Virus record (IMG/VR): IMGVR_UViG_3300047510_003583
Span: 42,795 to 106,794 of that record
From: a virus
Length of the DNA: 64,000 bases
Strand: one strand, 5' to 3'
Shown here: positions 28,136 to 62,142 of the stretch, piece after piece
How positions within the stretch are numbered: the stretch's first letter is position 1
Layout: every line of letters begins with the position of its first letter
Position numbers and translations under genes: made by a program
The notes under the pieces: generated by a model
Database searches by the model: none
Seen by the model: only the letters and a program-made list of their open reading frames with translations
Told to the model about the DNA's origin: nothing

Positions 28136-30124
28136 ATGGCTACATACGTTTCTGATCTTTTACCCGAACCATTTTTAAAGCAGTACCAAGATAAAACACC
28201 ACCATGGGGTTTTAATGGGTTAGGTTATATAGTGTATAAAAGAACATACGCTCGTAAATTAGAGGGTACAGATCAAACGGAAGAATGGTGGCAGACAGTG
28301 GCTCGTTGTATTAATGGAGCACAAGAAATTGGAGCTGATTATACTCAGGCTGAAGCACAAAGGTTATACGACCTTATTTTTAATCTTAAATGCAATTTTG
28401 CAGGGCGTATGCTTTGGCAGCTTGGTACAGAGACTGTAAAAAAGTTTGGTGCTAATTCATTACTGAATTGCTGGTATGTATCTATTAATGACCCAAAGAC
28501 TTTTCTTTTTATATTTGAAAACTTAATGCTTGGTGGTGGTGTTGGCTTCTCTATTCGTAGAGAAGATATTCATGAACTACCTAAGATTAAAAAAGGAGTA
28601 ACTGTAGAACATCAATGTACTAAAGACGCAGATTTTATTGTACCTGATTCTCGTTCAGGGTGGGTTGAATTACTTCGTAAGGTGCTAGAGGCATATTATA
28701 ATACCGGTAAATCATTTTCTTATTCCACTATTCTCATAAGAGGGGCCGGTGAAAGAATAACCGGTTTTGGTGGAACAGCATCTGGACCGGGTATTTTAAT
28801 TGAAGGTATCGGTAAAATTTCTCAAATACTTCAACAAAGAGAAGGTAAAAAACTTCGCTCTACCGATGTATTAGATATCTGTAATATAATTGGTTCGATT
28901 GTAGTTGCTGGAAACGTAAGACGCTCAGCACAAATAGCTTTAGGTGACCCTGATGATTATCTCTATCTTAGAGCTAAAAACTGGTCATTAGGTAATATTC
29001 CAAACTGGAGAGCTATGTCTAATAACACGATATATGCCGATGACTTTTCCCATATTTCTAGTGAAATATGGTCTAACGGTTACGTAACTGATAAAGAAAC
29101 AGGGTTTGCAAAAGGGGAACCGTATGGATTCTTTAATTTGCCTTTATCTCAAAAATATGGCCGCCTTAAAGACGGGCAAATGAAAAAGTCTAAACTTTAT
29201 CCTACTGATGAAGATAATGTTTTGGGTACTAATCCTTGTGCAGAAATTTCATTAAATTCCTATGAATGTTGCAACCTTTCAGAACTTTATCTAAACAATA
29301 TTACTTCTGCAGAAGAGTTGGTAGAATGCGCAACACTTCTTTATAAAACACAAAAAGCAACTGCGGCAATGCCGTTTATACACGACGAAACAAATAAAAT
29401 CGTTCATAAAAACATGAGATTGGGTCTCGGTGTTACAGGTATTTGTCAGTGTACTGATGAAAAAATAGAGTGGTTAGACAAAGGGTACGAAGCTTTACGT
29501 AAGTTTGATAAAGAATGGTCTAAACACAAGGGATACCCTGAATCTATTAAGTTAACCACTGTTAAACCTTCAGGTACTCTATCCCTTCTTGCAGGGTCAA
29601 CACCCGGGGTACACCCGGCTTATTCGCCATTTTATATTCGCCGAGTAAGAATGGGATCTGGGGATAAACTTGTAAATATCTGTCGAGATCTTGGGTATCA
29701 TGTTGAATTTGTTCGTGGCTTTGATGGTAAAGAAGATCATTCGACCATAGTTGTTGAGTTTCCGTGTTATGCGGGCGGTAATTGTGTTGTAGCTAAAAAT
29801 ATGACCGCAGTACAGCAGCTTGACCTTGTTAAAAAACTTCAAACTTACTGGTCTGATAATGCCGTATCAGTAACTGTATATTACAGACAGGATGAACTTG
29901 AAGAAATTAAAGCTTGGTTGGAAGTAAATTATGAAACATCAATAAAATCAGTTTCATTTTTACTACACAACGAACACGGGTTTGCTCAAGCCCCGTACGA
30001 AGAAATAACTGAAGAAGAGTATAATAAGTCTGTTGAGAGGGTTAAATCAATAACTACAATCAATATCGGGCAAGGGGAAATTGAAAGTATGGAATGTGTT
30101 GGCGGGGTTTGCCCTATTAAATAG
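28136..30124 (+). CDS. nrdJ: Adenosylcobalamin-dependent (class II) ribonucleoside-triphosphate reductase
   Basis: This monomeric class II reductase reduces ribonucleotides to deoxyribonucleotides using adenosylcobalamin as radical source. All key residues of the Lactobacillus-type enzyme are present: the redox Cys112 (NCWY), the radical Cys368 and Glu370 in NPCAEI, the second redox Cys379 (11 residues after Cys368, as in the family), and the C-terminal shuttle pair Cys654-x4-Cys659 (CVGGVC). The substrate loop PSGTLSLLAGSTPGVHP is intact. At 662 aa it is slightly shorter than the about 740-aa bacterial form. No intein or intron is visible. It works with dUTPase, encoded 0.7 kb downstream, to supply dNTPs. 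Its 3' end overlaps the convergent gene by 8 bases. It implies a host that makes or imports B12. Confidence 0.92.
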   Translation: MATYVSDLLPEPFLKQYQDKTPPWGFNGLGYIVYKRTYARKLEGTDQTEEWWQTVARCINGAQEIGADYTQAEAQRLYDLIFNLKCNFAGRMLWQLGTETVKKFGANSLLNCWYVSINDPKTFLFIFENLMLGGGVGFSIRREDIHELPKIKKGVTVEHQCTKDADFIVPDSRSGWVELLRKVLEAYYNTGKSFSYSTILIRGAGERITGFGGTASGPGILIEGIGKISQILQQREGKKLRSTDVLDICNIIGSIVVAGNVRRSAQIALGDPDDYLYLRAKNWSLGNIPNWRAMSNNTIYADDFSHISSEIWSNGYVTDKETGFAKGEPYGFFNLPLSQKYGRLKDGQMKKSKLYPTDEDNVLGTNPCAEISLNSYECCNLSELYLNNITSAEELVECATLLYKTQKATAAMPFIHDETNKIVHKNMRLGLGVTGICQCTDEKIEWLDKGYEALRKFDKEWSKHKGYPESIKLTTVKPSGTLSLLAGSTPGVHPAYSPFYIRRVRMGSGDKLVNICRDLGYHVEFVRGFDGKEDHSTIVVEFPCYAGGNCVVAKNMTAVQQLDLVKKLQTYWSDNAVSVTVYYRQDELEEIKAWLEVNYETSIKSVSFLLHNEHGFAQAPYEEITEEEYNKSVERVKSITTINIGQGEIESMECVGGVCPIK

Positions 30125-50606: not shown

Positions 50607-51260
50607 TTAGGCTTTTTTATCTTGTTGTGCAAATTCTACAAATTTATAAAACTCAGCACGAGATTGATCGCTTTTATCTAAAAACGCCCCTGACATTCTT
50701 GCAGTCCTCATAGTACTGTCATGCTTAATACCGCGATTCGAACAACAGGTATGATTAGCTTCTATTAATACAGCAACTCCTTTATTCTTTTCGCAGACTT
50801 GATCAATATACTGATGAATCTGCATTGTAAGATTTTCTTGGACTTGAGGTCTACGTGAAAACCAATCAACGATACGGTTTAGTTTAGACAAACCAATAAC
50901 CTTACCCGTCTTTGAAGGAATATAAGCAACGTGTGCTACCCCCATAAACGGTGCGTGGTGATGGGAGCACATCGATACTACCTTAATATTATTTTGACAG
51001 ACCATACCATCATAACCATCTACATTAGCAAAAGCTGTTACTTTGGGCGGAGCAGTATAACACCCCATCGCTAAATCTGTAACAAACGCCTTAGCTACAC
51101 GACGAGGCGTATCGGCACTATTCGGGTCATTACGCCAATCGAAGCCGAGAGCGTCTAAATATTGTTCGTATGCCTGAGCTCCCCTTGATATTAATTCTTC
51201 TGTTTCTTCTGGTGTATGAACTATATTATGATTAGCGTATTGTAGTTTTTTTCTAGACAT
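50607..51260 (-). CDS. folE: GTP cyclohydrolase I (FolE)
   Basis: The enzyme converts GTP to dihydroneopterin triphosphate, the first step shared by folate and 7-deazaguanine (preQ0/queuosine) synthesis. The 217-aa protein has the family's zinc ligands (Cys98 and His101 in [10 protein letters not shown], and Cys172 or Cys173 in HTCCSNRGI), the substrate motif [20 protein letters not shown] and [10 protein letters not shown]. It starts 3 bases after the gp32 stop, in the replication transcript. With QueF, a DpdA-like transglycosylase and a formyltransferase 6-9 kb away, it most likely feeds DNA base modification rather than host folate. QueD, QueE and QueC were not found in this window. Confidence 0.95.
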
Positions 51261-51263
51261 ATA

Positions 51264-52181
51264 TTAAAGAGAAGCTAAAAGTTCTTTGAGTTTTGCGTCA
51301 GTGTCATCAGTAGCTGGTTTATCTTCAGCTATTTCAGTTTTCGAAATAGCGGGTTCTGCAGTTGATGAACTCTTAATACCTTCAAATATATTTTGGAGTG
51401 CTTCGTCTTTAGTTGGCTTACTAATAGGGGTAATGAGTTCTTCATCATTATCATCTTCAGTATTAACGTCTTGTACACAGAAGAAGTGCTGTTCAAGCAT
51501 TCTTTGAAGTTCAGCCTGAGTCTTTGGCTTAAAAAACTTATCAAGCTGATGTACACTGCTATAAATCGTATCTAATTTTTTAGCATCTAAGCCTTCAATC
51601 GTTGAAGGAGAAGTAAATTTAGAAGATGTGTATGTTGGCAGCCCACCTTTACCTAGTCCGCTGGCAGCACGGGCTTCGCACTTAATTCTTAAGTTACATC
51701 CATTAGCTAGATCAAAGATCTTGACACCAAACTCTTCGGCATCATCTCCGTCAATTGCACTATTGATAATTTTAGCTAATTCCCGGCCATAGCGAATAAT
51801 TTTAACCTTACCTTCATTTTCAGGATTAGTAGGATCGGAAATAACATAAGCGTTTACTAACCAGCTTTCTTTACGAGCAATAGGCTTTACCTTTTCTTTT
51901 TCTTCAGCGCTGCCAGTTCTAAAGTTTTTAATAACATGAGAGTCAATCGGGCAAGATTCTCCGTAAGTAGTCGGACACAAGCACGTAACAAACTGACCTG
52001 TGCAAAAACTGTTCCAACTATGGTGATAGTAATGGTACAAGGTACGAGCTGGTGCGTCAACATTAGGTACAAGACGAACAATGTAAGTCTTACCTGTTTC
52101 AAATTTCATTACGTCCTTAAACGGACTTTCTGATTTAGTGGATAGAGATGCTTTAATTTCGTTAAAGATATTTTTATTCAT
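51264..52181 (-). CDS. 32: Single-stranded DNA-binding protein gp32
   Basis: The 305-aa protein matches T4 gp32 (301 aa). The N-terminal region MNKNIFNEIKASLS mediates cooperativity in the family. The OB-fold core holds a zinc-binding cluster with candidate ligands His53 or His54, Cys60, Cys67, Cys69 and Cys77 (HHSWNSFC, CLCP, ESCPI). The last 80 residues form an acidic, flexible tail (TEDDNDEEL, DDTDAKLKELLASL) that recruits partner proteins in T4. A TTGAAC/TATAAT promoter lies upstream, with the -10 box 11 bases from the ATG. In T4 order genes 33, 59 and 32 precede it in the same way. Confidence 0.9.
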   Translation of the reverse strand: MNKNIFNEIKASLSTKSESPFKDVMKFETGKTYIVRLVPNVDAPARTLYHYYHHSWNSFCTGQFVTCLCPTTYGESCPIDSHVIKNFRTGSAEEKEKVKPIARKESWLVNAYVISDPTNPENEGKVKIIRYGRELAKIINSAIDGDDAEEFGVKIFDLANGCNLRIKCEARAASGLGKGGLPTYTSSKFTSPSTIEGLDAKKLDTIYSSVHQLDKFFKPKTQAELQRMLEQHFFCVQDVNTEDDNDEELITPISKPTKDEALQNIFEGIKSSSTAEPAISKTEIAEDKPATDDTDAKLKELLASL

Positions 52182-55699: not shown

Positions 55700-56302
55700 T
55701 TAAAAATGAACAATATAATCTATAGAATTTTCTCTAATGAAATTTTCAAAATAATTCAAATTCCAAGGATTATTTTTTCTCATATGAAAGTGCCATTCTA
55801 TCGCTAAATGCTTCATGTAATTAAACGTATTGTCTAATAGCATTTTATCTAAAACTTCGCACTCTGCTCCTTCAATATCCATCTTTACATGTATATCATC
55901 TTCTTGGCTAAAATTGTTTTTAACAAAAGTAGAAAAATCAATACATTTTGTTTCCATTTCAACTTTTGGTGGCCATTCAGCCATATGATCTTTTTCTATA
56001 TACGTGGGTATTAAAAAATTTTCATGTAAGATGTTACTAGCACCACCTACCCACTTTTTTTCATACTTACAGAATTCAACATTTAATGTTCTTGATTCAT
56101 TTTTATCCCAAACAGCAACGTTATGAATTTTTATATTTGGGTGGGTGTATTTTTCCTTTAAAATATCAAAACTATTTTTATTGGGTTCAAACATGTGGAC
56201 TTCAGTATCATCCAACTGAAGCCCCCAATGCTTGAAGTACAGTTCAAATCCTGAACCGATTTGCGATCCGCAATCTAAAAATACTTTTTTATTCTTCGTC
56301 AT
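55700..56302 (-). CDS. FkbM-family SAM-dependent methyltransferase
   Basis: The 200-aa protein has the FkbM-type Rossmann methyltransferase layout: SAM-binding motif I VFLDCGSQIGSGFELYFKHW, an acidic FEPNKNSFDILKEKY strand that binds the ribose, and a C-terminal DIHVKMDIEGAECEVLDKML segment, which is the family hallmark MDIEGAE. These enzymes usually methylate glycans, O-antigen sugars or other small acceptors, so the target here is open. It overlaps the upstream 128-aa gene by 14 bases and lies between the base-modification cassette and uvsX. It is not the deazaguanine methyltransferase DpdM as far as I can see, because that enzyme was described as having a distinct fold. Confidence 0.85.
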   Translation of the reverse strand: MTKNKKVFLDCGSQIGSGFELYFKHWGLQLDDTEVHMFEPNKNSFDILKEKYTHPNIKIHNVAVWDKNESRTLNVEFCKYEKKWVGGASNILHENFLIPTYIEKDHMAEWPPKVEMETKCIDFSTFVKNNFSQEDDIHVKMDIEGAECEVLDKMLLDNTFNYMKHLAIEWHFHMRKNNPWNLNYFENFIRENSIDYIVHF

Positions 56303-56675
56303 CGAAGAGTTTAACCACGTCTTGATCTGCAGGTGCTTGGCCCGGAACAGGTTGTTCAGGCTGAGGCTGGGAAGCTAAACTCATAATTTGCTCATATTGA
56401 GCAATAATTTTAAAATCCAGAACCGGGTCTTTAACAAGAGCGATGCTGTCCTTTGTAAAGGAAACGATTACATCATCTGCTTTATCTGCTAAAAACTCTT
56501 TGAAAAAGAGAGGTAGAATCTGAAGAGATAACTGACCTGTTTGAGGGTTTGGCTGTAAGTGAAGTACAGCTGGATCTTTTACGGTTAAGGTTTTGTCGTT
56601 TGATTCGACTTCTTGACCGATAATTGTACGGCTAACTGAGTCGAAGAACGCTACGATTTTTTTGTTGTTACTCAT
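56289..56675 (-). CDS. Hypothetical protein, 128 aa
   Basis: I do not recognise the family. The protein has a beta-rich body (IVAFFDSVSRTIIGQEVESN, ending QLSLQILPLFFKEFLADKA), then a strand IVSFTKDSIALVKDPVLDFK, and a Pro/Gln linker (QPQPEQPVPGQAPADQ) with an acidic tail VVKLFDDEE. The linker plus acidic tail is the kind of arrangement used by proteins that dock to replication factors. A promoter-like TTGCAT/TATAAT pair lies upstream with the -10 box 11 bases before the ATG. It starts 38 bases after the QueF stop and overlaps the methyltransferase gene. Confidence 0.6.
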   Translation of the reverse strand: MSNNKKIVAFFDSVSRTIIGQEVESNDKTLTVKDPAVLHLQPNPQTGQLSLQILPLFFKEFLADKADDVIVSFTKDSIALVKDPVLDFKIIAQYEQIMSLASQPQPEQPVPGQAPADQDVVKLFDDEE

Positions 56676-56713: not shown

Positions 56714-57661
56714 CTACTGACCCATAGCTTTTTTAGTGTAATATTTCGGGTTTACTAAAACAGGGGGTAGCATGTCAAAAGATGTAGCTCTACACGGATT
56801 AATGTCTAATGAACCACGACGTGAGTATAGTAGAGTTACAGCACAAGAATCTACTTCAGGACATTTCATAATTTCTGTATAAAGCTTTTCAGCACAAAAC
56901 TCGTGAAACTCGTTAACCTCTCTAAGAGAGACTACCTGTTTAAAAAGTGATTCAGGTTTAAGAACACAACCAAGGGTGTTAATTGAGATATAAGCGGCTC
57001 CTGTATCTTTTTGCTTTGTATGGCGGCAACGAGAGCGTAATGCATTAGTAAAGAATTTATTTGCATAAAGGGCTTTGTTTTCTTTTATACTATAACCAAA
57101 GCCCGAATAATTAACACTTTCAAATTCAAGATGATTTTTTTCTGCATTATAATCAGTAATTTCAATACTCTCAAGATCTTTATCTAAGAAAGATTGTAAA
57201 TCAATATAACCTGTCATAGGGAAGATTTCATTAATCTCATCTCCTGACCTAAAAAACTTAACATCAACGGAAGTTTCTAAAGCTTTTTCGAGATCTGTCT
57301 TAACTTGTAATTCGTAATTTTGAATAGCAGAATCAAGCGACTGGCCCATCTTACACATGTCAAAAGTATTAAGGTAAAGTTTAGCAGACTTCGATTCAAC
57401 CATATACTTAGAATCGGATGAATAGGTGTACTTTAAAGTACCAGCTATAGGTACACCGCTATTAAGAAGAAAAGTAGCTTCATGGCAGTGCCAAGTATCA
57501 TACCCAACAAATTCATCCCCTTTAATACCCCATCCATCTCGAGCGAGTTTACGGGGCATCGGGTTAAGAAGAGAGGGATCAAAACGGTCAGTGTAAACAG
57601 CATAAGAGGCTGAAGACCCTAACGATTTTGAAGCGATATCGTTTAAGTTTGTTGTACTCAT
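56714..57661 (-). CDS. queF: NADPH-dependent 7-cyano-7-deazaguanine reductase (QueF, bimodular type)
   Basis: The enzyme reduces the nitrile of preQ0 to the aminomethyl group of preQ1. The 315-aa protein aligns along its whole length with the E. coli-type QueF (about 280 aa). The N-terminal KSLGSSASYAVYTDRFDPSL and PMPRKLARD segment, the family signature ESKSAKLYLN (89-98), the catalytic Cys212 (SRC) with Asp219, the NEFHE motif with His253, and RRGSLDINP (281-289) are all present. Reduction to preQ1 makes sense for a DNA-modification pathway with DpdA. It overlaps the kinase stop by ATGA, so it belongs to the cassette at 56714-59577. Confidence 0.95.
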   Translation of the reverse strand: MSTTNLNDIASKSLGSSASYAVYTDRFDPSLLNPMPRKLARDGWGIKGDEFVGYDTWHCHEATFLLNSGVPIAGTLKYTYSSDSKYMVESKSAKLYLNTFDMCKMGQSLDSAIQNYELQVKTDLEKALETSVDVKFFRSGDEINEIFPMTGYIDLQSFLDKDLESIEITDYNAEKNHLEFESVNYSGFGYSIKENKALYANKFFTNALRSRCRHTKQKDTGAAYISINTLGCVLKPESLFKQVVSLREVNEFHEFCAEKLYTEIMKCPEVDSCAVTLLYSRRGSLDINPCRATSFDMLPPVLVNPKYYTKKAMGQ

Positions 57662-58206
57662 TGTTTTAAATATTTTTCTATTGTTTTCATTCTTTGCTCA
57701 ACAGAACCTTTAAGCCGAATGACTTTTTCTTTATTCTTCGGAGAAATTTTATACGTAATTAAATCTTCGAACAGAACAATTATATCATCTCTAAATTTAA
57801 AATCCACAGAACGTTCTCCGTCATCGACTAATTTTACATCAGATGGATCTGTATAAAAAACGTAGTCTAACTTATCAAACAGTAAACTAAATACACTATT
57901 AAAAGCATGTAAAACATCTTCTTTTACCTTGCCTTGATTTACTTGATATTTTGTATAAACATAACCATCTAAAATACAACGATCAAGCATTAAATTTTCT
58001 TCCGGTTTAAGATGATTCTTAATATGTTCAGCTAAAATGTATAGTTGAGTTTCTGTACCGCCAATCTCATTAATCTTTACATCATACGTCCGGCGAACAT
58101 ACCTCGTAACCTCATCAACAAACTTATAATCTTTATAAGTCTCTTTGCACTTATTTAGTAAGGTAGTTTTACCTGTACTCTGAGCACCTGTAAATGAAAC
58201 TCTCAT
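57658..58206 (-). CDS. P-loop kinase-like protein (NadR/AAA_28 type) in the deazaguanine cassette
   Basis: The 182-aa protein begins with MRVSFTGAQSTGKTTLL, a Walker A motif of the kind in NadR- and deoxynucleoside-kinase-like ATPases. A DEVTRYVRR segment and MLDRCILDGYVYTKY further on fit a small-molecule kinase; DR-x-x-x-D-G is typical of nucleotide kinases. It lies between the formyltransferase and QueF, 7 bases after the former, and is coupled to QueF by ATGA. A role in handling a modified nucleoside or nucleotide is attractive, but not shown. NMN or dNMP phosphorylation are alternatives. Confidence 0.7.
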   Translation of the reverse strand: MRVSFTGAQSTGKTTLLNKCKETYKDYKFVDEVTRYVRRTYDVKINEIGGTETQLYILAEHIKNHLKPEENLMLDRCILDGYVYTKYQVNQGKVKEDVLHAFNSVFSLLFDKLDYVFYTDPSDVKLVDDGERSVDFKFRDDIIVLFEDLITYKISPKNKEKVIRLKGSVEQRMKTIEKYLKQ

Positions 58207-58212
58207 ATCTTT

Positions 58213-58239
58213 ATTATAGTCTATATCTTAAAAAATCAA
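58213..58239 (-). promoter_or_regulatory. Sigma70-like promoter before the kinase and queF
   Basis: TTGATT (58234-58239), 15-base spacer, TATAAT (58213-58218), 6 bases before the kinase ATG. It lies over the end of the formyltransferase gene and could give extra kinase-QueF expression. Confidence 0.4.
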
Positions 58240-58750
58240 CCCATAATTCAGAAGCAGCTTTATGAGTTTTAGTAAAAATTTCATCAAGAGTATTGTTTTT
58301 TATATCAACAATATTTTGTGCTAGTATTGGCCCAGCATCTAATTCAGCAATACATTTGTGTATAGTGTTACCTGAGTATTTCAATTTTTCTTCAAAAGTA
58401 CGAACTTGCGGGTCTTTACCCTTTAGGTGAGGGTACGTAACTAAAGGGGCTGGATGCAAATTATATATTTCGTACAAGTCACATATTTCAGGTGGTATGA
58501 TACGTAACCAACCGTGTAGTGTTACAAGAGATCTACTAGGTATAACATTTTTATATTCTTCTACTGTTGGTTTTTTTGGTAGCCAAATAAACTTGTCATG
58601 AAATTCATCAAATAATTCGGGTTTAATTTCTAAAAATTTATCTTTAGTTTTATTTGTAATAATAAAATCAGGTACCCGGTTAAGAGTTTTTATTAAATTA
58701 AAGATTTCAGAACCTGTTTGACTAAACAGTGTTACCCAAGGTCTTTTCAT
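58214..58750 (-). CDS. Formyltransferase, DpdN-like (predicted dPreQ1 formyltransferase)
   Basis: The 178-aa protein has the PurN/methionyl-tRNA formyltransferase fold with its catalytic triad: Asn97 and His99 in YNLHPAPL, and Asp138 in AELDAGPIL. The folate-binding segment SLVTLHGWLRIIPPEI parallels PurN's 'AGFMRILSP'. It overlaps the DpdA-like gene by ATGA and sits next to QueF. A phage dPreQ1 formyltransferase (DpdN) has been proposed to make 7-(formylamino)methyl-7-deazaguanine in DNA; this gene is the best fit in the window. The normal purine-synthesis PurN would be about 212 aa and out of place here. The acceptor is inferred from the neighbours. Confidence 0.8.
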   Translation of the reverse strand: MKRPWVTLFSQTGSEIFNLIKTLNRVPDFIITNKTKDKFLEIKPELFDEFHDKFIWLPKKPTVEEYKNVIPSRSLVTLHGWLRIIPPEICDLYEIYNLHPAPLVTYPHLKGKDPQVRTFEEKLKYSGNTIHKCIAELDAGPILAQNIVDIKNNTLDEIFTKTHKAASELWVDFLRYRL

Positions 58751-59577
58751 TTACAGAGATTTCTAAACTGCGTAATATTCCAAAAAGAGTCGTATACTTG
58801 CTGACTTGTTAGATTAGCATCAATAAAATCAACAAGTTTTACTGACCATTTTTCTGAAAGACCGGGACCCGGTTCATATCTTTTACCAAGAATGCCCGCA
58901 ACAATTGGATTTGAAGTATCAATAGTTTCAATATACTCACTCAAGTAATTATCAGAATATAGAGAAAATTCCCAAGGCAAAGATGCTCCGAGTAGATGAT
59001 GTGGTTTGTCAACATCTAAAACGTCATTATCGTAAAGATCGTCAAGAAGCTTTACCCGGCCAATAGCATATTTAAACCATTTATTATCTTCATGGGACTT
59101 GACAAATCCCGGTACATTAATTTGTGACCAGTCACAGTTATCTAGGTAATAAGAATAATCAAACGAAATAGCAATTTTATCAACCTTTGGTGCTACAAAA
59201 CGATAACAGTCAACAATATCCTGATAGGTCTTACCCTGTACAACACCAATTTTACGTCCAGGTAGATCAGAATACTTTGTTAGGAAGTTATCCATTGACA
59301 TACAAGTACCGGCTGTATCCTCTAAAACATCAGGGATAACATACTCGAAGGGTTTAAGTTCTTTGACCCAATACGCAAACTGATCCGGATCAAAAGAGGT
59401 TCCTAGCTCAAAAATAGAGTTATCTAATAGAACTCTGCGACCGTAATCTACGGATCTGAAATAAAATTCTTTGTACGCCTGATTCTCAGGCAATAAATGC
59501 ACCAAGCAATAATCATAGTCATTATAACCCCAAGAGTATGGAAGCAACGATACGGGTGTTTCGTGTGAGATTTTCAT
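58747..59577 (-). CDS. dpdA: DpdA-like DNA guanine transglycosylase
   Basis: The 276-aa protein has the features of the short phage DpdA proteins, tRNA-guanine-transglycosylase relatives that exchange guanine in DNA for a 7-deazaguanine. The RVLLDNSIFELG segment (Asp52) takes the place of the TGT 'TDSGGFQ' motif. EYVIPDVLED (78-87), IGVVQGKT (110-117), HHLLGASLPWE (193-203) and ETIDTSNPIVAGI (217-229, possible second Asp220) follow in TGT order. It lacks the C-terminal zinc motif of tRNA TGTs, as expected for DpdA. It starts 15 bases after the DNA polymerase stop and overlaps the formyltransferase by ATGA, so it is the first gene of the cassette. Confidence 0.85.
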   Translation of the reverse strand: MKISHETPVSLLPYSWGYNDYDYCLVHLLPENQAYKEFYFRSVDYGRRVLLDNSIFELGTSFDPDQFAYWVKELKPFEYVIPDVLEDTAGTCMSMDNFLTKYSDLPGRKIGVVQGKTYQDIVDCYRFVAPKVDKIAISFDYSYYLDNCDWSQINVPGFVKSHEDNKWFKYAIGRVKLLDDLYDNDVLDVDKPHHLLGASLPWEFSLYSDNYLSEYIETIDTSNPIVAGILGKRYEPGPGLSEKWSVKLVDFIDANLTSQQVYDSFWNITQFRNLCK

Positions 59578-59584
59578 AGAAGAA

Positions 59585-59612
59585 ATTATATACTAATTAC
59601 AAAGTAAATCAA
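59585..59612 (-). promoter_or_regulatory. Sigma70-like promoter before the dpdA cassette
   Basis: TTGATT (59607-59612), 16-base spacer, TATAAT (59585-59590), 7 bases before the DpdA ATG. It begins in the last codons of the polymerase gene and gives the modification cassette its own start. Confidence 0.55.
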
Positions 59613-62142
59613 ATAAATCTGTTTGTACTTCTTTACCAATAATAGGTAATCTCCAGCCAATAGCGTCATAAACTTGTTCAATAGGAGGAGCTACAATTTT
59701 ATTAAACATTTTATCGTAATCAATTTTAACATCTAAACTAAACTCTTTCGGGTATTGATTTACAAAACCAATAGCGTCAAGGCCGTATGGGTTTTTTGCG
59801 GCATAAAAGTATTTGATCTTTTGACCTGAATTGATACGTTCATACTTTGTTTCAAGGTTATATTTTTCTAATAAGAGGTTATATGCAATTGCTGCTTTAA
59901 CATGGCATGGTGTTGCTAAATTGAATTTTGCTAAAGAGGCGCCACCAGACCATTTGTCGTATTCTTTAACAGCTTTTCGAAACGCTGCATCTTCTACTTT
60001 AAGTGTTTTAAACAGTTCATAAGCTTCTCTGTATACCTCGTTTGTCTTCTTTACATCTTTAGTTAAGAACGCTGTATTAATAGTTTTTTTAATTAACTCT
60101 TTAACTTGTTTAGGTGTTGTTGAACGTGCTAACTCAACACCAACATATTTAAATTTACTCGTAGGTACACCTTCTTCGTCTAGAATGTGAAGTATGTATC
60201 GTTTCTTCTGTAAAAAAGAACCGACATCAGCTATGGCTTCTCGCTTAAATTCAAATCGCGGATCAGCAGAGTTTAACTCTTTACGAGCCCAAGAAAGAAT
60301 TTCTGTATTTAAATGTCTGCCAAGAGCATCAACTATTTTATGAGACTCGGAAGTAATGGCGTCATCTTTTACAAGCGGTAGTTTAAGTTTATTAAGGATA
60401 GGTTGTATAGTTGTGTATAGGGAGTCGGTGTCCCCAGATAAAATAAGAGATTCATCGACATTAAATTTTTCTTTAGCCCATGCGTCAATAATAGCCCCTC
60501 CTGCTTTAGCAACAGCTTGACCGGTTAACGTGATTGAAGACGCGTTATCAATATCCATAAACGCCGAATGTTTGTTTGCAAACGTTCCGTAAATAGAGTT
60601 AAGGAGAATCTTTAACGTGTACTGTAGAGTATCAAAGTATTGTATTTGGGAAATTGTTTTTGGATCTTTTTGTTTTGTTTTTTTAAGCTCGATCATTTTT
60701 TGACGAGCATAGACTCGCTCATCATAAATGCTATTAATCAGGTTAGGACAAACACCTTTGTATTTTTGAGAGTATAAAACACCTGCTTTAGACAAAGAGA
60801 CATTTTCTTCGGTTAGAAATTTTTTAAGTTTCTTGGTGTTTATTGTAAAAATATTACCATTAACAAGACGTATATCGAGATCTTCATCTCCGTCAACATT
60901 ACCTGTAACTATTTTACCTAGTTTAGTTTCTGGTGAAATATTAAGAGTTATGATTGTGTTAGGGTACAGAGAGTTAACGTCAAAACTTACAATAGCTTCT
61001 TTAAGACCTCGTTCAGGCTCCCTTACATAACCACCTTCAAGAGACTCTCTAATAGTATCGTTTTTAAACGTTGGTATGACGTAGCCTTGTTTGTCAGCCT
61101 GTAAAGTCATAGCTCCAGTAACAATAGATACCTTACCGAGAGCTCTTTCGAAATTTGTACAACCTTTATAAGACAATAGACGAATAATTTTAAGGTAGTT
61201 AAGTTTTTCTTCTAATTTACGAAGCAGATCAACGTCCTGGATGTTATAGTCAACAAAATTTTCCCAGTCAGTGTCAGCTAAAGAGGATAAGTTTGTAGCA
61301 TTAATAGCAAGCTTACCTTCCCCTAATTCGTATTCAGCAATATAATTTAACGAAAATGATTCTCGGTCACCTTTTGAATAGGTTTTGTAAATCTCCATGT
61401 AGTCTAAACAACTAACACCTGAAATATACCAACGACCTACATCTTTACCAAACTTAGCAAAATTTTCTCTATACTGCATTTCACCGATTGGTGATAATTG
61501 TTTTATAAAATCTTCTCCGAGCAGGTTTCTAGCACGGTTAATAATATAAGGAATATCGAACTGCTCAGTATTCCACCCTGTTAAAATATCTGGAGGATCT
61601 TTTTTCCAGAACTTAACAAAGTTATCAAAAAGTTCTTGTTCTGTTTTACATAATATGTATGTAACATTATCGAGTTTAGGTTTATAGTCGTGCTTTAACC
61701 CCCAGGTGGTTATCTGGTTTGTCAGGGTATCATATACCGTAATAAGTACTACAGGGTCCTTAGCTTTATGAGGTACAGGGAACTCATTAGGAGAGTACGT
61801 TTCAATATCGATAAAATAAACTTTTAGTGGAAACTTACTAAACTCTTCTTTATGAACGTCGTCTTTAAACGTTTCAACCAAGAATTGCTGATCGACAGGC
61901 AGATTGCCAAATAACCTTTTAGTACTTGTTTCGTTTACGTACTTGTTTCGTTCAAAACTATTTTTAAAAAAATGTCTTTTTAGTGGTGTTTTAAAGATCG
62001 AGACAGCGTCTTTTGATTTTTCACTCTCTGTATAAAGAAACGGTGTAAACGGAACCTCAGTATCAATTCTATCGCCGTCAGAAGTCCACGTTCTTAGATA
62101 TACAGTTCCTTCTCGTGGCCTATAAGTTGCGTTCCTAAACAC
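59593..62142 (-). CDS. 43: DNA polymerase gp43 (family B)
   Basis: The 849-aa polymerase has an intact 3'-5' exonuclease: Exo I FIDIETYS (Asp112, Glu114), Exo II GWNTEQFDIPYI and Exo III YNIQDVDLLRKL. The polymerase motifs are intact too: A FDVNSLYPN (about 389-396), B KILLNSIYGTF (about 515) and C SGDTDSLY (about 571). The start is GTG with an in-frame TAA two codons upstream, so no longer N-terminus is possible. A TTGATA/TATACT promoter places the expected transcript start at or next to this GTG. T4 gp43 has 898 residues. No intein is present. It replicates the DNA that the downstream cassette is predicted to modify. Confidence 0.97.
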   Translation of the reverse strand: MFRNATYRPREGTVYLRTWTSDGDRIDTEVPFTPFLYTESEKSKDAVSIFKTPLKRHFFKNSFERNKYVNETSTKRLFGNLPVDQQFLVETFKDDVHKEEFSKFPLKVYFIDIETYSPNEFPVPHKAKDPVVLITVYDTLTNQITTWGLKHDYKPKLDNVTYILCKTEQELFDNFVKFWKKDPPDILTGWNTEQFDIPYIINRARNLLGEDFIKQLSPIGEMQYRENFAKFGKDVGRWYISGVSCLDYMEIYKTYSKGDRESFSLNYIAEYELGEGKLAINATNLSSLADTDWENFVDYNIQDVDLLRKLEEKLNYLKIIRLLSYKGCTNFERALGKVSIVTGAMTLQADKQGYVIPTFKNDTIRESLEGGYVREPERGLKEAIVSFDVNSLYPNTIITLNISPETKLGKIVTGNVDGDEDLDIRLVNGNIFTINTKKLKKFLTEENVSLSKAGVLYSQKYKGVCPNLINSIYDERVYARQKMIELKKTKQKDPKTISQIQYFDTLQYTLKILLNSIYGTFANKHSAFMDIDNASSITLTGQAVAKAGGAIIDAWAKEKFNVDESLILSGDTDSLYTTIQPILNKLKLPLVKDDAITSESHKIVDALGRHLNTEILSWARKELNSADPRFEFKREAIADVGSFLQKKRYILHILDEEGVPTSKFKYVGVELARSTTPKQVKELIKKTINTAFLTKDVKKTNEVYREAYELFKTLKVEDAAFRKAVKEYDKWSGGASLAKFNLATPCHVKAAIAYNLLLEKYNLETKYERINSGQKIKYFYAAKNPYGLDAIGFVNQYPKEFSLDVKIDYDKMFNKIVAPPIEQVYDAIGWRLPIIGKEVQTDLFDLLCN

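Follow-up and report, generated by a model that had tools for sequence, protein, structure and literature searches.

A candidate 7-deazaguanine DNA-modification cassette beside a T4-type DNA polymerase gene in an environmental virus, and its deoxynucleoside-kinase-like partner

The locus behind the DNA polymerase

The window analyzed here is a 64,000-nucleotide stretch of IMG/VR virus record IMGVR_UViG_3300047510_003583, a 106.8-kb fragment whose end lies 4.4 kb past the DpdA gene described below. Four open reading frames lie on its minus strand directly behind the gene for a T4-type DNA polymerase B (gp43-like; 59593..62142, minus strand), which matches PF00136 (4.1e-26) and phrog_262 (6.1e-199) and has its closest named relatives in T4-like phages, for example Pelagibacter phage HTVC008M (~32% identity). 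In order from the polymerase, they encode a candidate DpdA/TGT-fold base-exchange enzyme (58747..59577), a PurN-like enzyme that is a candidate preQ1 N-formyltransferase (58214..58750), an AAA_28 P-loop kinase, Kin1 (57658..58206), and a bimodular QueF, the reductase that converts preQ0 to preQ1 (56714..57661). By ORF coordinates, the gap between the polymerase and DpdA genes is 15 nt, the DpdA and formyltransferase frames overlap by 4 nt in a shared ATGA, the kinase follows after a spacing of 7 nt, and the kinase and QueF frames again overlap by 4 nt. A sequence-only reading of this DNA had described four overlapping or adjacent genes behind the polymerase, with an ATGA shared by the first two; the frames are real and the overlap is as described.

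The assignments of the last gene and of the second are supported by conserved residues. QueF matches PF14819 (1.5e-21) and PF14489 (3.4e-9), and its match to TIGR03138 (8.8e-48) falls under the equivalog cut-off. The Cys212, Asp219 and His253 residues named in the sequence-only reading are present, together with Glu254 and the ESKSxKLYLN motif. The formyltransferase (PF00551 Formyl_trans_N, 4.2e-13) contains the Asn97, His99 and Asp138 that the same reading had called intact, and these are invariant across 32 homologues. PurN is its best NCBIfam match, at 46.7 bits against an equivalog cut-off of 150.1, and the protein is therefore PurN-like and not an orthologue by the PurN model. Its PDB matches are GART, which likewise places it in the PurN-like group and not among the sugar-type enzymes that had been named as the possible alternative. 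The protein carries Glu in place of Asn in the G-S-N loop of PurN and is the least conserved cassette member in its clade, with ~60-76% identity versus 74-98% for the kinase. Taken with the families, these residues bear out the earlier proposal of a 7-deazaguanine modification cassette with a preQ1 reductase and an N-formyltransferase, and we consider the locus very probably to be a 7-deazaguanine DNA-modification cassette.

Genes for the precursor are found at a distance. FolE, GTP cyclohydrolase I (50607..51260, minus strand; PF01227, 1.7e-49), catalyzes the first step of preQ0 synthesis, which is common to folate. Its gene starts 3 nt after that of its upstream neighbour, a gp32-like SSB (51264-52181). 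The placement of FolE in the gp32 transcript thus stands as far as the spacing goes, and the shared transcript may be presumed from it. A search for QueC, QueD and QueE, as the sequence-only reading had proposed, was successful in part. Both QueD and QueE lie ~21 kb further out on a sister contig (G001) that matches the window at 100% identity in every protein compared. QueC was found neither on the window contig nor on G001, both of which are fragments, so this step must depend on QueC of the host or on an unseen gene. QueC is also absent from the contigs of seven relatives, and is present in the phages immuto and CP220. MazG and an HD phosphohydrolase, considered as PurZ-like markers of pool control, were not found in the genome of the window or in the sister contig.

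Two further genes of the window were recorded. An FkbM-family methyltransferase gene (55700-56302, minus strand) is flanked by RecA and the gene at 56289-56675; it occurs at this site only in the window virus and the identical sister contig, and was undetected there in the other relatives compared. A B12-type ribonucleotide reductase gene (28136-30124, plus strand) lies on the opposite strand, inside the structural-gene region.

The TGT-fold protein and its kinase partner

The DpdA-like protein is compact (276 aa) and matches zero Pfam or NCBIfam models; by sequence it matches phrog_19058 only, a family whose function is unannotated. Its AF2 model, built from 46 homologues, has a pLDDT of 93.7 (input alignments here comprised window and IMG/VR sequences only). 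The first three Foldseek matches of this model in the PDB are TGT (4hvx, 1.9e-8), the DpdA crystal structure 7ui4 (2.5e-6) and mouse TGT. A profile HMM search of PDB sequences returned nothing meaningful, so that fold comparison is the sole link to the solved TGT/DpdA structures. The identity given to this protein in the sequence-only reading is thus upheld by structure and not by sequence models. In hhalign comparisons, the protein aligns to a phiST protein (98.4%), has no detectable sequence similarity to the Dp-1 DpdA, and gives no match to a CAjan ORF that is not established as DpdA. Given the result for the Dp-1 enzyme, insertion into finished DNA by this divergent family is an assumption. 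Asp52, Asp83 and Asp220 are invariant among the 46 homologues and Gln114 is nearly so; all four occupy TGT-like motif positions and are candidate catalytic residues, their equivalence to TGT residues coming from our motif mapping rather than from structural superposition. Judged by predicted fold and motif order, the protein is a divergent, compact member of the TGT/DpdA fold.

In IMG/VR, over 550 loci contain a gene of the DpdA family, and the gene order of the window is seen in dozens of contigs. Gene content was counted in the 76 best-scoring DpdA loci with at least 3 kb of downstream sequence. DpdA, formyltransferase, kinase and QueF recur together in 45 of these, which argues that the arrangement is not due to chance, although the loci, selected as best matches, are related to one another, which makes the counts non-independent. 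A further 23 lack only the formyltransferase of the four, and five have DpdA and kinase only; the kinase was undetected in three. One locus (L076) combines DpdA, formyltransferase and QueF with no detected kinase. Another (L059) has the polymerase-adjacent arrangement of the window and keeps DpdA and the kinase, while the formyltransferase and QueF are lacking there. On the DpdA tree, in which many forks are weak, presence of the formyltransferase changes at least six times.

Insertions were observed at some of these loci. Two GIY-YIG homing-endonuclease-like genes (L018:5002-5796, plus strand, and L018:3202-4005, minus strand) lie between DpdA and the formyltransferase and beside the polymerase gene, and gaps of similar size occur in L013, L015, L016, L027 and L028. 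A recombinase gene (L059:11926-14561) is split by an apparent intein or comparable insertion that contains an endonuclease-like ORF.

Kin1 (PF13521, 8.1e-15) has a deoxynucleoside-kinase-like predicted fold. The top 50 Foldseek matches of its AF2 model (pLDDT 91.4) are mostly dCK, dNK and dAK, followed by TMK and NadR. The protein carries a P-loop and a DRC motif of the dNK-type DR(S/C), and its invariant Gln54 is aligned by HMMER with a Gln of the Giardia deoxynucleoside kinase. In deoxynucleoside kinases, the Gln at this position contacts the base. Kin1 is thus, by predicted fold, a deoxynucleoside-kinase-like P-loop kinase, for which we propose a modified deoxynucleoside as substrate; fold alone cannot give the substrate, and resemblances of the family extend to thymidylate kinase and NadR.

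The sequence-only reading had left the kinase as a bystander, a role that the wider comparison contradicts. Kin1 is the most constant partner of the DpdA family, present in 73 of the 76 loci versus 69 for QueF and 47 for the formyltransferase. It is kept with DpdA where both QueF and the formyltransferase are missing, Campylobacter phage CP220 included, and DpdA is present in all 49 kinase loci having more than 3 kb of upstream sequence. A second AAA_28 paralogue, Kin2 (L215:2863-3492, plus strand), comes after QueE in the sister contig at a spacing of 2 nt. Kin2 is without the VDDGERS motif of Kin1 and retains the DRC motif and Gln54. QueE lies nearby on the same strand in 64 of the 68 Kin2 loci with more than 2.5 kb of upstream sequence, and is directly adjacent in 36. 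Several Kin2-bearing contigs, two of ~127 kb among them, show no DpdA, and all of these may be fragments. Neither kinase occurs in CAjan, Dp-1, HVTV-1, Salmonella 7-11 or phiST, five of the six phages of the deazaguanine pathway used for comparison; the sixth, nt-1, gives one weak partial match to Kin1. Weak kinase homologues are also present in phages not known to carry the pathway.

Possible routes and the predicted base

Gene content, predicted folds, conserved residues, synteny and co-occurrence, as established by the analysis, suggest the following route. Its individual reactions, its product, the placing of formylation before insertion and the passage through nucleotides are our proposals. 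FolE, with QueD and QueE as encoded on the sister contig and a host or unseen QueC, would produce preQ0, which QueF would reduce to preQ1. The PurN-like enzyme would then formylate the aminomethyl nitrogen of preQ1, and the TGT-fold enzyme would swap guanine for the modified base. In the phrog_19058 family, this exchange would act on a deoxynucleoside or deoxynucleotide; Kin1 and the paralogue beside QueE would phosphorylate the exchanged product, and the neighbouring polymerase would incorporate the modified nucleotide.

We lean toward such a nucleotide-level route over exchange in finished DNA, though with slightly less than even confidence. The position of kinases beside both halves of the pathway suggests a precursor-level route. 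CP220 has DpdA next to a kinase, and 100% of its dG is reported to be replaced by dADG (PMC8306585); we infer the missing exchange enzyme of this system to be the phrog_19058 protein. A more specific version is perhaps a shade more doubtful: the base would be swapped on free deoxyguanosine or dGMP, the two paralogous kinases would carry the product to the diphosphate, and the polymerase would receive a 7-deazaguanine dNTP, making genome-wide replacement of G possible. The Campylobacter study reportedly did not detect dADG phosphates, and this would count against a nucleotide-level route.

Exchange in finished DNA, in which the TGT-fold enzyme replaces guanine by preQ1 or formyl-preQ1 after replication and the kinase is an accessory acting on nucleotide pools or DNA, is a serious contender that we hold to be somewhat less probable. 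Phages 9g and CAjan have a DpdA that inserts its base in DNA (PMC6884629), the fold of the window protein matches that of 7ui4, and phiST has a related compact protein and no detectable kinase. However, this explanation gives no reason for a deoxynucleoside-kinase-like protein at 73 of the 76 loci or for a paralogue on the QueE side, when the six comparison phages have essentially neither kinase. Nor does it account for the reported full replacement of dG in CP220.

As for the base itself, formylated preQ1 is probably the final product of the cassette. Gene content likely determines the outcome across the family, with fdPreQ1 where the formyltransferase is present, as in the window, dPreQ1 where it is absent, and an earlier intermediate such as dADG where QueF is absent as well. 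The 23 loci with DpdA, kinase and QueF but no formyltransferase suggest that dPreQ1 may suffice as an end product in the family. That the window, too, stops at dPreQ1, with its formyltransferase acting on another amine, is nevertheless unlikely, since the gene joins the other three in 45 loci and, in the window, overlaps DpdA and encodes intact catalytic residues. We find it very improbable that the genes serve to raise queuosine in host tRNA while the phage DNA stays unmodified. FolE, QueD, QueE and QueF are also enzymes of the queuosine pathway, and such a host-tRNA function has been suggested for certain phages (PMC6884629), but neither the formyltransferase nor the kinase is needed for queuosine, and CP220, whose DpdA and kinase belong to the same families, is reported to have fully dADG-modified DNA (PMC8306585). 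Taken jointly and leaving the route aside, a cassette that replaces dG by 7-(formylamino)methyl-7-deazaguanine is a reasonably probable reading of the locus. The modified base may protect against restriction, as the sequence-only reading had supposed.

These results touch on the question of how some phages replace guanine completely, versus about one third of G or less for the DNA-level DpdA systems in the literature searched. The gene-order association of a TGT-fold enzyme with a deoxynucleoside-kinase-like protein offers an answer open to direct test, and connects CP220 with environmental viruses. If correct, this would be a transglycosylase that uses nucleotide precursors, and it would provide a means of producing 7-deaza-dNTPs enzymatically. 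It would likewise account for the enzyme that has been described as lacking in the fully dADG-substituted Campylobacter phages.

Comparison with known systems

The deazaguanine pathway, QueF and DpdA are already known, as is the formylation of preQ1. The chemistry predicted for the window is the one reportedly described for fdPreQ1 and DpdN (Cui et al. 2023, Nucleic Acids Res. 51:9214). For the coupling of this divergent DpdA family to a deoxynucleoside-kinase-like protein, with Kin2 beside QueE, no description was found in the literature searched, which excluded the key papers on fdPreQ1 and Campylobacter dADG, and one may already exist.

The identical type of cassette occurs in a public isolate, Flavobacterium phage vB_FspM_immuto_2-6A (NC_055915), where DpdA, formyltransferase, kinase and QueF (45%, 46%, 32% and 36% identity to the window, respectively) follow in the same order. 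FolE, QueD, QueE and QueC lie elsewhere in that genome, and the depositor annotation names DpdA, QueF, QueD, QueE and FolE. Immuto differs in having a small ORF between DpdA and the formyltransferase, which overlap in the window, and a family A DNA polymerase downstream in place of the PolB directly upstream.

CAjan, 9g, Dp-1 and nt-1 resemble the window in combining deazaguanine precursor genes with a TGT-fold transglycosylase (PMC6884629). Their reported base replacement is partial, and the DNA of Dp-1 carries dPreQ1 (PMC6884629). CAjan, Dp-1 and nt-1 are unlike the window in having no formyltransferase of its family. The Campylobacter phages are listed there as lacking DpdA, and a proposed route through a modified dGTP is restated (PMC6884629). 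In CP220 (Firehammervirus), unlike the window, no formyltransferase homologue was found, and no QueF was found near DpdA. Yet its gp056-gp057 encode a protein of the DpdA family (41%) followed directly by the kinase (34%), as in the window, and its genome holds a second kinase paralogue.
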